Positions 30,488 through 37,573 of a DNA stretch of 64,000 nt are shown one piece after another (position 1 is the stretch's first letter; the number at the start of each line of letters is the position of its first letter). This stretch comes from Phyllobacterium sp. T1293 (lineage in GTDB: Bacteria; Pseudomonadota; Alphaproteobacteria; Rhizobiales; Rhizobiaceae), in NCBI RefSeq assembly GCF_020731415.2, contig NZ_CP088273.1:2609001-2673000 (forward strand), read 5' to 3'. The translations under genes were made by a program, and so were the position numbers. Below the pieces are notes generated by a model, which was given only the letters and a program-made list of their open reading frames with translations, made no database searches and was not told the origin of the DNA.

Positions 30488-30591
30488 CCATTGAAGCCTT
30501 GCCCCGCATCAGCTAGAACCGCTTCGCGCATGCGAGCTATCGCAGCCCCATGCACCCGTAGCTCAGCTGGATAGAGCGCTGCCCTCCGAAG
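30488..30591 (+). repeat. Left 104-bp direct repeat (tRNA-Arg upstream + 5' half)
   Basis: Identical over 104 bases to 37433-37536. It consists of 64 bases of tRNA-Arg upstream sequence and the first 40 bases of the tRNA (from 30552), stopping just after the anticodon, where the sequence changes from the expected GCAGAGG to CTACGTAAACC. It marks the left edge of the island. A further 12-15 bases upstream of both copies are similar but not identical. Confidence 0.9.
30552..30591 (+). pseudogene. Truncated tRNA-Arg(CCG), 5' half only
   Basis: Acceptor 5' strand, D arm, anticodon 5' strand and loop CTCCGAA are present, identical to the intact gene at 37497. The 3' anticodon strand, T arm and acceptor 3' strand are absent, so it cannot make a functional tRNA. 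Because the 64 upstream bases are also kept, it may still be transcribed. Confidence 0.9.
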
Positions 30592-30745
30592 CTACGTAAA
30601 CCATTGAAAATGAATGGTTTTTACCATTGATCCCAAAGGCTTTTCCGTTCCCAGCACATGTATTTCGCGTAAGAGCGGCACATATTCGCCACTCTTAGTG
30701 ACAGGGCTGATCTTGGACAACAGCGACAATTGTGAGTTCTCGGCC

Positions 30746-31852
30746 AAGTGCGACCTTGCAGCATCGGCAAGCTAATCCATTCACTGCCTCCTTGCCATGA
30801 CCTTTTGCCGGAAGACTTCGGCCGGTGTCCTGAAGCCCAGACATTTGCGGGGGGTGGTGTTGAGCTGGTTGCAGACGCGGTGCAGTTCGATATCGCTAAT
30901 GGCCAGGGGATCGACATCCCTCGAAAGCCATCTGCGTGCCCGGCGATTTGTGTTCTCGACGGTGCCTTTTTGCCAGGGCGACTGCGGATCGCAGAACCAT
31001 GTCTGAGTTCCAAGCCCAGCTTGTAGGTGTGGCCAATCGGTGAATTCGGTGCCTCGGTCAAAGGTAATTGACCGGCGCGCACGGACGGGCAGGGCTTCCA
31101 GCGTCCGTATCAGACGCTCCATGATCGGCCGCGACTGCCGGTCATTGTTGCGCAGGAACACGGTAAAGCGACTGACCCGCTCAACCAGAGAAGTGATATT
31201 GGCTTCGCCGAACTTCTTCCTGAACTGAATGAGATCACACTCCCAATGACCGAACTGCTTGCGTTCACGCACGCTGTCTGGTCGATGCAGGATACTCAGT
31301 TCCGGGCTGAACCGGCGGCCATAACAGCGCCGGGCACGCCGCGGACGGCGTCGGGCGCGACGCTCCGGCAGGTGGTGCCACAGTTTGATCGCCTGACCAT
31401 CTTTCGAATAGGCAAACCGGTAGATCGTCCCATGACAGACACTCATGCCGTGTCGCGCTTCTTCCAGCTTGAGGCGGCCTGCGATCTGTTCGGGTGACCA
31501 GCCGTGGCGGATACGCTCGATGATAGCCTCGCGCAGCAGCGGCCGTCGCATCAGTTTGCGCAGATTGTAACGCCGGTCCTTTGACTTCGTATCGGCCACC
31601 AGACCGTAATAACCCGTCAGTTCTCGCATCTCGGGATCATCGAAACTATTGCGCTTCAGTTCGCGAAAGATCGTCGAGCGATGCCGCCCCAGTTTCTCGG
31701 CAATAATATCAACGCTGATCTTTGCGGCGCGCCAGCGCTCGATCTTACGCCGCTCATCAAGCGTGATCTGGGAGTAGGTGTGCCGAAGCAGTCCATTCAT
31801 GAGCAATTCCTTTGCTGCGATAAGCCATTGTTATCGCTACAAAGTCGCACTT
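30746..31852 (-). mobile_element. IS30-family insertion sequence
   Basis: An element of about 1.1 kb around the 341-aa transposase gene. Terminal inverted repeats are visible: AAGTGCGACCTTGCAGC at 30746-30762 and its near reverse complement GCTACAAAGTCGCACTT at 31836-31852 (15 of 17 matching). The exact outer ends and target duplication are not certain. It sits about 150 bases inside the left island repeat. The intervening 30592-30745 has an AT-rich 8-bp hairpin (AAACCATT...AATGGTTT, about 30598-30620) and no gene. Confidence 0.85.
30781..31806 (-). CDS. IS30-family transposase
   Basis: 341 aa, complete. An N-terminal HTH (TLDERRKIERWRAAKIS then IIAEKLGRHRSTIFRELKRN) and a DDE catalytic core: Asp in HWECDLIQF, Asp in ITFDRGTEFTDW, and Glu in WQKGTVENTNRRARRW, with C-terminal LNTTPRKCLGFRTPAEVF, a hallmark of the family. 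No frameshift or stop is seen, so the element could still be active. Confidence 0.95.
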   Translation of the reverse strand: MLMNGLLRHTYSQITLDERRKIERWRAAKISVDIIAEKLGRHRSTIFRELKRNSFDDPEMRELTGYYGLVADTKSKDRRYNLRKLMRRPLLREAIIERIRHGWSPEQIAGRLKLEEARHGMSVCHGTIYRFAYSKDGQAIKLWHHLPERRARRRPRRARRCYGRRFSPELSILHRPDSVRERKQFGHWECDLIQFRKKFGEANITSLVERVSRFTVFLRNNDRQSRPIMERLIRTLEALPVRARRSITFDRGTEFTDWPHLQAGLGTQTWFCDPQSPWQKGTVENTNRRARRWLSRDVDPLAISDIELHRVCNQLNTTPRKCLGFRTPAEVFRQKVMARRQ

Positions 31853-31977
31853 CAGAATAGAACCCACCCCGGCTACATGAGGTAGTTGCATAAGCCCCAT
31901 TATGGAACTCATAATCTTACTAAGCATTTTGATACGCTTAAGTAGGCTTCTTATGTCGAGCGAATTTCTTATCGCAC

Positions 31978-32378
31978 TCAGAAGCTTTCCAAGAGTTCAT
32001 AGATTTCGATTATGCCGCGAACGATCTGGCAAACGTCAGCTGCCTTTTCTGGCGTGTCAGCATAGTGGTTGGCGTGCGCTAGTGAATTCCTTAGGGCTTT
32101 TATTGCCCGTATGTCTTTGGAAAACCGGTCGCGCTTCTCGTGCTTTTTTAGAAGGACTGAAGCAGGATATCCCGCTTGTCGCACAGCTGGGTGTAGAGCA
32201 GCTCTTCTATCCCATCTGCAGCATTTGCCTTTACCAAGTGTTTGCTAATCTCTTCGCGGCGCTCTTTTGAAATAAGCTTTTGCCAGTCCACCGCCAACGG
32301 AAATCCATCCGTGACAGGGGCAGAGATTAACTGATTTCTTCTGGAATAAAGCCGCCGGTCTGGCGTTTCCACAGACAA
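31978..32378 (-). pseudogene. Frameshifted HEPN-like gene remnant
   Basis: Two overlapping frames read as one broken protein. The first covers WQKLISKERREEISKHLV to DKRDILLQS and ends at a stop; the second continues LLKKHEKRDRFSKDIRAIKA, then LRNSLAHANHYADTPEKAAD to IYELLE. The join lies at a run of six A (plus-strand T at about 32144-32149), consistent with an indel. RNSLAH matches the Rx4H motif of HEPN RNase/toxin domains, and the surrounding helices fit. The 5' end overlaps the ABC transporter stop by 52 bases, and there is no proper N-terminus. Function before decay is unknown. Confidence 0.55.
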
Positions 32379-37038: not shown

Positions 37039-37297
37039 CACTGGTTCCGATTCGACCACGCAGATTGTATCATATTCGTCAGTTGCTTCGGCTAGCTTTG
37101 CTTCTTCGTCTGCCCGTATTCATGGACCGGTTCGATTCCATTCCGGACGTAATTTTCAGTGACTGGTCACTACCCACATGGCTGGGACACGTGGCGCCAA
37201 AACCTGGGTTGCTTTCCCACAATTTGGGGATTTGCCATCCCGAATTTTCGCCGCTATGAGGCTGCTCGCAACGGCCTACGCGTCACCATGCTCAAGC

Positions 37298-37336
37298 GGA
37301 CAGGTGGCTGAGTGGCTGAAAGCACCGTGCTCGAAA
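37298..37336 (+). pseudogene. Truncated tRNA-Ser(CGA), 5' half only
   Basis: The 39 bases comprise the acceptor 5' strand GGACAGG, the D arm GCTGAGTGGCTGAAAGC, the anticodon 5' strand CCGTG and the loop CTCGAAA (anticodon CGA). The following bases CGAGA pair only partly with CCGTG, and no variable arm, T arm or acceptor 3' strand follows. The break is in the same place, at the anticodon arm, as in the truncated tRNA-Arg. The rest of 37060-37432 contains no gene. Confidence 0.75.
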
Positions 37337-37432
37337 CGAGACTACCACAATCCGGCACAACAATGGCACACTGCAATCAAACCGCCCGCCCCTCCAACAA
37401 TCTCACAGCTTCTTTGTCTTCTGCAAACTTCC

Positions 37433-37536
37433 CCATTGAAGCCTTGCCCCGCATCAGCTAGAACCGCTTCGCGCATGCGAGCTATCGCAGCCCCATGCAC
37501 CCGTAGCTCAGCTGGATAGAGCGCTGCCCTCCGAAG
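37433..37536 (+). repeat. Right 104-bp direct repeat (tRNA-Arg upstream + 5' half)
   Basis: Identical to 30488-30591. Here the tRNA continues into a full gene. Together the two copies delimit a 6.95-kb segment. Confidence 0.9.
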
Positions 37537-37573
37537 GCAGAGGTCACAGGTTCGAATCCTGTCGGGTGCGCCA
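37497..37573 (+). tRNA. tRNA-Arg, anticodon CCG
   Basis: A complete 77-base cloverleaf with encoded CCA: acceptor GCACCCG/CGGGTGC, D arm GCTC...GAGC, anticodon arm CTGCC-CTCCGAA-GGCAG, T arm ACAGG-TTCGAAT-CCTGT, discriminator G. It reads CGG codons. Its 5' half is duplicated 6.9 kb upstream, so the present 5' half may be supplied by the inserted DNA and the 3' half by the original chromosome. Confidence 0.97.

Follow-up and report, generated by a model that had tools for sequence, protein, structure and literature searches.

What kind of event duplicates the upstream region and the 5′ half of a transfer RNA (tRNA) gene, and leaves the two copies at opposite ends of an island in which no integrase can be found? 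This question is raised by a stretch of 64,000 nucleotides from Phyllobacterium sp. T1293 (contig NZ_CP088273.1, positions 2,609,001 to 2,673,000; the whole stretch is referred to here as the window), in which an island is bounded by a repeat that takes in the first half of tRNA-Arg(CCG). A preliminary description, made from the sequence alone, had drawn attention to this island and had placed it among Brucella and Ochrobactrum; the genome is that of a Phyllobacterium, the neighbouring porin having its best match (99%, among 78 loci) in Phyllobacterium sp. OV277. The island is very probably a decayed integrative element, belonging to a family whose tyrosine integrases would place the crossover within the anticodon loop of tRNA-Arg(CCG), and which brings with it the upstream region and the 5′ half of the gene.

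The Repeat and the Empty Site

The two copies of the repeat (Table 1) are 104 bp long, lie 6945 bp apart and do not differ at a single position, an identity far too unlikely to have arisen by chance. A repeat search of the window scored the pair as 111 nt at 98% identity (30481-30591 and 37426-37536), and ARAGORN found a single tRNA in the window, i.e., the tRNA-Arg(ccg) of which the right copy forms a part. As the preliminary description had stated, the duplicated part consists of 64 bp of upstream sequence plus the 5′ half of the tRNA (positions 1-40), and the left copy lacks the 3′ half that completes the right one. The repeat ends one base beyond the anticodon loop (A39 of the tRNA corresponds to position 30590).

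Comparison with an empty site, which had been proposed at the outset, was possible in genome G015. Two parts of the window, 24001-30591 (93.8%) and 37407-41423 (94.8%), align to G015 and meet at the tRNA. Because G015 is collinear with both flanks, the left copy can be recognized as native, and the upstream region and 5′ half of the right copy as borne by the island. The empty site is continuous with the left flank, and the island thus belongs to the subclass in which the element supplies the 5′ part of the gene.

Recurrence in Phyllobacterium

Among 20 Phyllobacterium genomes, including that of the window (G000), at least five (G000, G002, G005, G013 and G016) contain the upstream region and 5′ half twice, once in the complete tRNA gene and once as an extra copy. 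In all five, the extra copy lies to the left of the complete gene and on the same strand, and the islands so delimited are 6.9 kb (G000), 4.3 kb (G002), 2.6 kb (G005), 20.7 kb (G013) and 28.2 kb (G016) long. Beyond the anticodon loop, all five islands enter related sequence, the left arm, which resembles that of the window over about 100 bp in G013 and G005 (Table 1) and over only some tens of bases in G002 and G016. About 90 bp into the element, each of the five has a match to the pattern GGCAC-N5-CGCCAC, and a similar box is seen by eye in G123, G058 and G052. At the right end, the pattern search detected paired repeats of the GGCACA type in G000 and G013, and similar pairs are seen by eye in G005 and G016. 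Judged by their sequence, these boxes and repeat pairs look like integrase arm sites. The left arm of G013, used as a DNA query against 19 Phyllobacterium genomes (without G002), gave strong matches in G013 and G000 only and a weak match in G005 (E 0.007), the others being at chance level.

The left neighbourhood of the site is constant in most of the genomes (gene cluster c0 is present in 15 of the 20, as is c1), and the stretch between it and the tRNA is highly variable across the genus. A stretch that varies right up to the tRNA, beside a constant left neighbourhood, marks this place as a hotspot. The same tRNA is also the target of conventional elements, whose traces are 3′-half fragments of tRNA-Arg(CCG) of about 50-60 nt (G018:C1:3281358; G007:C12:316625 and 349323; G019:C2:263903; G002:C39:480).

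Relatives That Carry an Integrase

The islands of G013 and G016 each contain a tyrosine integrase of 328 aa, the two proteins being 84% identical. At E ≤ 1e-40, this integrase was found among 19 Phyllobacterium genomes (without G002) in G013, G016 and G001 only, and a separate search found none in G002. In the family as a whole, 32 of 297 genomes hold a relative at this threshold (loci were listed for 30 of the 34 places, and wider regions were examined for 13), and six of the loci listed are at 67-76% identity to the integrase. The tRNA-Arg(CCG) 5′ half, ending in CTCCGAA, is present on the 5′ side of the integrase in G071, G052, G123, G058 and G127 (in G127, the end of the contig cuts the 5′-half region). 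In G152, the contig starts near the integrase, whose reading frame has a stop, and a complete tRNA lies on the far side, i.e., the right end only is seen.

Complete elements with the 5′ half near an integrase, for which the preliminary description had suggested a search, were found: G071 (13.2 kb) and G052 (7.5 kb), both outside Phyllobacterium, have both ends with the integrase between them. The integrase gene of G071 is whole and starts about 290 bp beyond the junction; the cargo of this element includes HsdM and HsdS of a type I restriction-modification system, and that of G016 includes HsdR-, S- and M-like proteins. A further island of 4.9 kb, without an integrase of this clade, was detected by pattern in G340. 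The 5′ half has been seen in six genera besides Phyllobacterium (G071, G052, G123, G127, G058 and G340), and the integrase is oriented with the tRNA in all eight loci that can be judged (G013, G016, G071, G052, G123, G127, G058 and G152).

A strict pattern of junction plus arm matched two of 394 family genomes; a pattern of the 5′ half with any base but G after it, designed in a way that passes over junctions continuing with G (such as those of G000 and G052), matched four of the 394. Relatives of the integrase were not found in IMG/VR. A phage collection gave 489 records, all below 60% identity (the best among the matches listed, 41%), and a plasmid collection gave 2668 records, two of them at 60-80% identity (the best among the matches listed, 52.9% over the whole length).

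A tree was made of 29 integrase rows, for 21 of which the insertion site could be assigned; G310 (a 153 aa piece, with an in-frame stop), L233, L234 and L235 were left out. Nine rows form one clade with a support of 100/100 (G013, G016, G071, G052, G123, G127, G058, G152 and G001). Seven of these nine integrases, from Phyllobacterium and five other genera, lie in islands that start with the tRNA-Arg(CCG) 5′ half, and four of the seven islands show both ends, two of them outside Phyllobacterium. The sister clade comprises 14 rows (support 96/95), six of which are seen at tRNA-Ser(CGA). Three elements at tRNA-Ser(CGA) (G040, G310 and G207) have the whole tRNA at either end, the two copies being separated by 13.8-17.8 kb. 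Besides the tRNA itself, the ends share 62 bp of upstream sequence in G040, 24 bp in G207 and 47 bp (one mismatch) in G310, where the tRNA also has one mismatch. The far end of G114 has the tRNA-Ser 3′ half only. The outgroups have a complete tRNA-Val or a distant tRNA-Arg at the integrase side, which is the end that was read.

The Shared Block and Its Origin

In eight islands, the block shared by the two junctions covers 110-122 aligned columns in six, 68 in G340 and 36 in G002 (for G123, the comparison used the tRNA of the window). The repeat starts 71-83 bp before the tRNA in six of the eight islands, 29 bp before it in G340, and within the tRNA in G002. In all eight it ends at A39, at the 3′ edge of the anticodon loop, an end which is partly built into the eight-island pattern, as this required a match to A39; an unconstrained search of the five Phyllobacterium islands placed the end at A39 or one base further. 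Inspection of G340 and G002 by eye shows that both copies retain two blocks in their usual positions, one of them TTGAAG or TTGATG, and since both blocks are still present, the upstream region appears to have been carried in these islands as well, although the copies have diverged. All 25 Phyllobacterium copies examined have a CATTGA block 63-67 bp ahead of the tRNA, and this conserved block suggests that the carried upstream region acts as a promoter.

The proposed course of events is as follows. The circular form of the element would have a copy of the upstream (promoter) region and 5′ half of the tRNA beside the crossover point. Integration would then strand the upstream region and 5′ half of the host as a fragment at the left end, whereas at the right end the upstream region and 5′ half of the element would be joined to the 3′ half of the host, so that a working tRNA gene is kept. 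In intact members, the integrase lies to the right of the left fragment and in the direction of the tRNA, and the stranded host promoter may read towards it. The window copy would have lost its integrase, and an IS30-type transposase is present. The preliminary description had offered two alternatives: that an unusual element brings its own promoter and 5′ half, or that an integrase gene has been lost. As to the first, the upstream region and 5′ half are indeed brought by the element, as G015 and the relatives show, and a promoter role is suggested; the second is borne out by relatives which have the same arrangement and carry a tyrosine integrase that the window copy lacks.

Three other explanations have to be weighed. 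Homologous recombination, or a tandem duplication of the tRNA region, might have been followed by the arrival of unrelated DNA, and the window island itself, with an IS30-type transposase and without an integrase, would fit such a history. However, eight islands share one breakpoint, located at the 3′ edge of the anticodon loop (partly by pattern, with agreement of the unconstrained search in five), related arm sequence follows in the five Phyllobacterium islands, and the relatives have a clade-specific integrase. Simple tandem duplication is unlikely because a related arm follows the 5′ half in five species, and neither it nor a duplication older than the island, which the preliminary description had named as the contrary outcomes, came to light as far as tested. 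Taken as a whole, this explanation is very improbable.

The mover could instead have been the large serine recombinase (516 aa) of the G016 island, whose gene adjoins the left arm and starts about 670 bp after the junction. Yet ARAGORN, pattern and BLAST searches to a distance of about 1.5 kb from its 29 relative loci (in 27 of the 297 family genomes) revealed no tRNA or tRNA half, except for two 19-nt matches at chance level; there is no PF07508 match in G000, G005 or G013, and G002 is without a close relative. A role as the mover is therefore very unlikely. Finally, a conventional 3′-type element might have been present earlier, and a rearrangement might have left the 5′ half by accident. 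The 3′-half fragments in G018, G007, G019 and the small G002 contig do mark the tRNA as a conventional target as well, but the 5′ half is present in five Phyllobacterium species and six other genera, and the integrases associated with it form a separate clade, making such an accident very unlikely.

Besides the part which the pattern played in the A39 end, several observations weigh against integration by a tyrosine integrase as the origin of the window island. There is no tyrosine integrase within it, all five PF00589 matches of the genome lying outside the window; none was found in the islands of G002 or G005, and none of this kind in G340. Where the integrase is present in Phyllobacterium, it lies mid-island (about 9 kb from the left junction in G013 and about 13 kb in G016), and the 40 kb surrounding the G001 integrase of the clade (G001:C1:354339-355322) contain neither a tRNA nor a tRNA-Arg half. 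The complete tRNA of G123 was not found in the 78 kb around its locus. In G002 it is ambiguous which copy is native: of the 297 aligned bases upstream of its complete copy, 279 agree with those of G014, in which there is no fragment among the matches listed. A consensus scan for a promoter of the Escherichia coli type found none. Furthermore, the loss of a resident element would leave G015 looking identical, i.e., gain and loss are not separated by the empty site.

The Inverted 3′ Half

Up to 300 bp upstream of 34 tRNA-Arg copies in 26 genomes was scanned for matches to the 3′ half of the tRNA. A strong inverted match (E ≤ 1e-11) is present at the complete copies of G005, G016, G071, G052, G152 and G340 and at the G123 fragment, and weaker inverted matches (6e-8 to 7e-7) are present in G001, G019 and at the G013 fragment, together with one of 16 nt at E 0.005 in G007. 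The other copies scanned, among them both copies of the window, both copies of G002 and the complete copy of G013, have no inverted match better than E 0.2; in direct orientation, the best match of the same scan was one of 12 nt at E 0.001 (G007). Of the nine complete copies at which an island ends, six have the inverted 3′ half, whose near edge is some 90-135 bp ahead of the tRNA. The inverted half starts about where the direct half stops, and it has 9 differences in 182 from the host's own tRNA in positions 40-65 (for G123, from the tRNA of the window); that of G152 matches a host-specific variant of the T-arm. Thus, at six right ends both halves of the tRNA are present, split at the anticodon loop and in opposite orientations.

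Selection on mismatches in the 7-bp overlap (20 of 49, versus 9 of 182) was considered and rejected, as positions 27-32 differ equally (21 of 42). Since positions 27-32 are as divergent as the overlap, the inverted copy can be taken to start near position 40. The split halves might be an invertible switch, or else the frozen relic of a change from a whole-tRNA to a 5′-half attachment (att) site, a suggestion that is tentative and rather doubtful. Inversion by the integrase of a complete element-borne tRNA, from the crossover site to the anticodon loop, would give halves split in this way. An uninverted element with a whole tRNA-Arg was not found at the tRNA-Arg sites studied; a whole tRNA is borne by three elements of the sister group, at tRNA-Ser(CGA).

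Contents of the Window Island

Table 1. Features of the island, with positions in the window, and a gene cluster of the related G016 island (last line).
Feature	Position	Strand	Evidence
Left copy, native: 64 bp upstream with promoter-like block plus tRNA-Arg(CCG) 5′ half (30552-30591); left junction (attL)	30488..30591	+	Joined to tRNA 3′ half in empty-site G015
Candidate element left arm (P′), with GGCAC-N5-CGCCACT box at 30677-30693	30592..30695	+	79% over 98 nt to G013 island; 76% over 104 nt in G005
IS30-type transposase (labelled from its domains), later insertion or cargo	30781..31806	-	Pfam HTH_38, rve
ABC transporter, cargo	32327..34180	-	Pfam ABC_membrane and ABC_tran
PAN-domain protein, cargo	34554..35837	-	Homologue in G016 island at same tRNA; 74-75% DNA identity in two stretches
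Second arm-like box, degraded, 30 nt	36153..36182	+	Sequence comparison; 87% to left arm, E 6e-5
tRNA-Ser(CGA) 5′ half, likewise ending at 3′ edge of anticodon loop	37298..37336	+	90% over 41 nt to G000:C1:3354382-3354422, the native gene by eye
Candidate element right arm (P), GGCACA-N5-GGCACA	37354..37370	+	Similar motif at G013 right end
Right copy, element-supplied: upstream region plus tRNA 5′ half; right junction (attR)	37433..37536	+	Single copy of G015 has flank of left copy
Reconstituted tRNA-Arg(CCG): element 5′ half plus native 3′ half (37537-37573)	37497..37573	+	ARAGORN; Rfam RF00005, 71.6 bits
Large serine recombinase and two RepB-like proteins, next to left arm of G016 island	L118:3796-7163

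The absence of an integrase, already reported in the preliminary description, also holds for a translated search of the island with the integrase of the relatives (best E = 1.1). The one recombinase-like gene seen in the island is the IS30-type transposase, which was considered as the mover and rejected, as it cannot account for a breakpoint common to several species. Phage structural and conjugation genes were not found among 49 proteins scanned with Pfam, which included part of the open reading frames of the island and two proteins from outside it.

The second arm-like box is possibly the remnant of a stacked element. The G013 island has a second arm-like stretch as well (core CTGCCCTCAGAATCC), about 2.1 kb to the right of the left junction, which suggests stacked elements there. 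Near the right end of the window island is a trace of the 5′ half of tRNA-Ser(CGA), and at the right end of G005, a run of 23 bases is identical to the corresponding part of this tRNA. Because the sister integrases sit at tRNA-Ser(CGA), the trace in the window may be the relic of a change of target.

As a separate observation, record L074 (JAHREI010000009.1), whose title names Bacillus subtilis SK6B4, codes for a protein that is a 56% relative of a porin from Phyllobacterium, and is probably mislabelled or contaminated.

Comparison with Known Systems

SXT/R391 elements in prfC supply the promoter and 5′ end of the target gene, which is protein-coding, unlike the tRNA gene here. Integrases that target dusA likewise insert at the 5′ end of a gene, but this target too is protein-coding, as the available part of the account has it (PMC4482086). 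In the tRNA-dependent lysogeny of mycobacteriophages, as far as the accessible text describes it, the element similarly compensates for the tRNA gene that it breaks, but does so with a core of about 10 bp and a separate whole tRNA gene (PMC10865867); here, a longer block (36-122 shared columns in the eight islands) rebuilds the host gene, and there is no second tRNA in the window. Closer are the archaeal integrases of the pTN3 type, for which attB is the 5′ half of a tRNA that is then expressed from a promoter of the element; in the sections available (PMC8371274), this is the promoter of the integrase, whose gene is split on integration, whereas here a copy of the tRNA's own upstream region is brought, and the integrase is whole and away from the junction (its reading frame in G071 is uninterrupted).

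The closest counterparts are in the Islander collection, where 159 of 3919 islands in tRNA genes have a 5′ fragment and 3760 a 3′ fragment (PMC4383910). The preliminary description had set the present arrangement apart as the reverse of that of known integrases; it is rare but was already on record. Like the 5′-fragment islands of Islander, the window island has a 5′ fragment upstream of a complete tRNA and on the same strand, the position is in the anticodon loop, and intact members (G013, G016, G071 and G052) have a tyrosine integrase inside the island; the displaced 3′ part that marks a conventional island is not seen in the window. Unlike the Islander islands, the window copy has no integrase, and neither a carried upstream region nor an inverted 3′ half is described in the available portion of that account (PMC4383910). 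In the open-licence literature searched, no account was found of this integrase clade, of an upstream region carried along with the element or of a 3′ half in inverted orientation.

Island finders that demand an on-board integrase will overlook decayed copies such as that in the window. An explanation is called for by the inverted 3′ half, a concrete feature that recurs; the clade, its sister group (with a whole tRNA-Ser in three elements) and the outgroups provide a series for testing how the use of att sites has evolved. Most elements that target tRNA genes (3760 of 3919 islands in Islander have a 3′ fragment; PMC4383910) keep the promoter and 5′ half of the host and replace the 3′ half; the elements considered here do the opposite.

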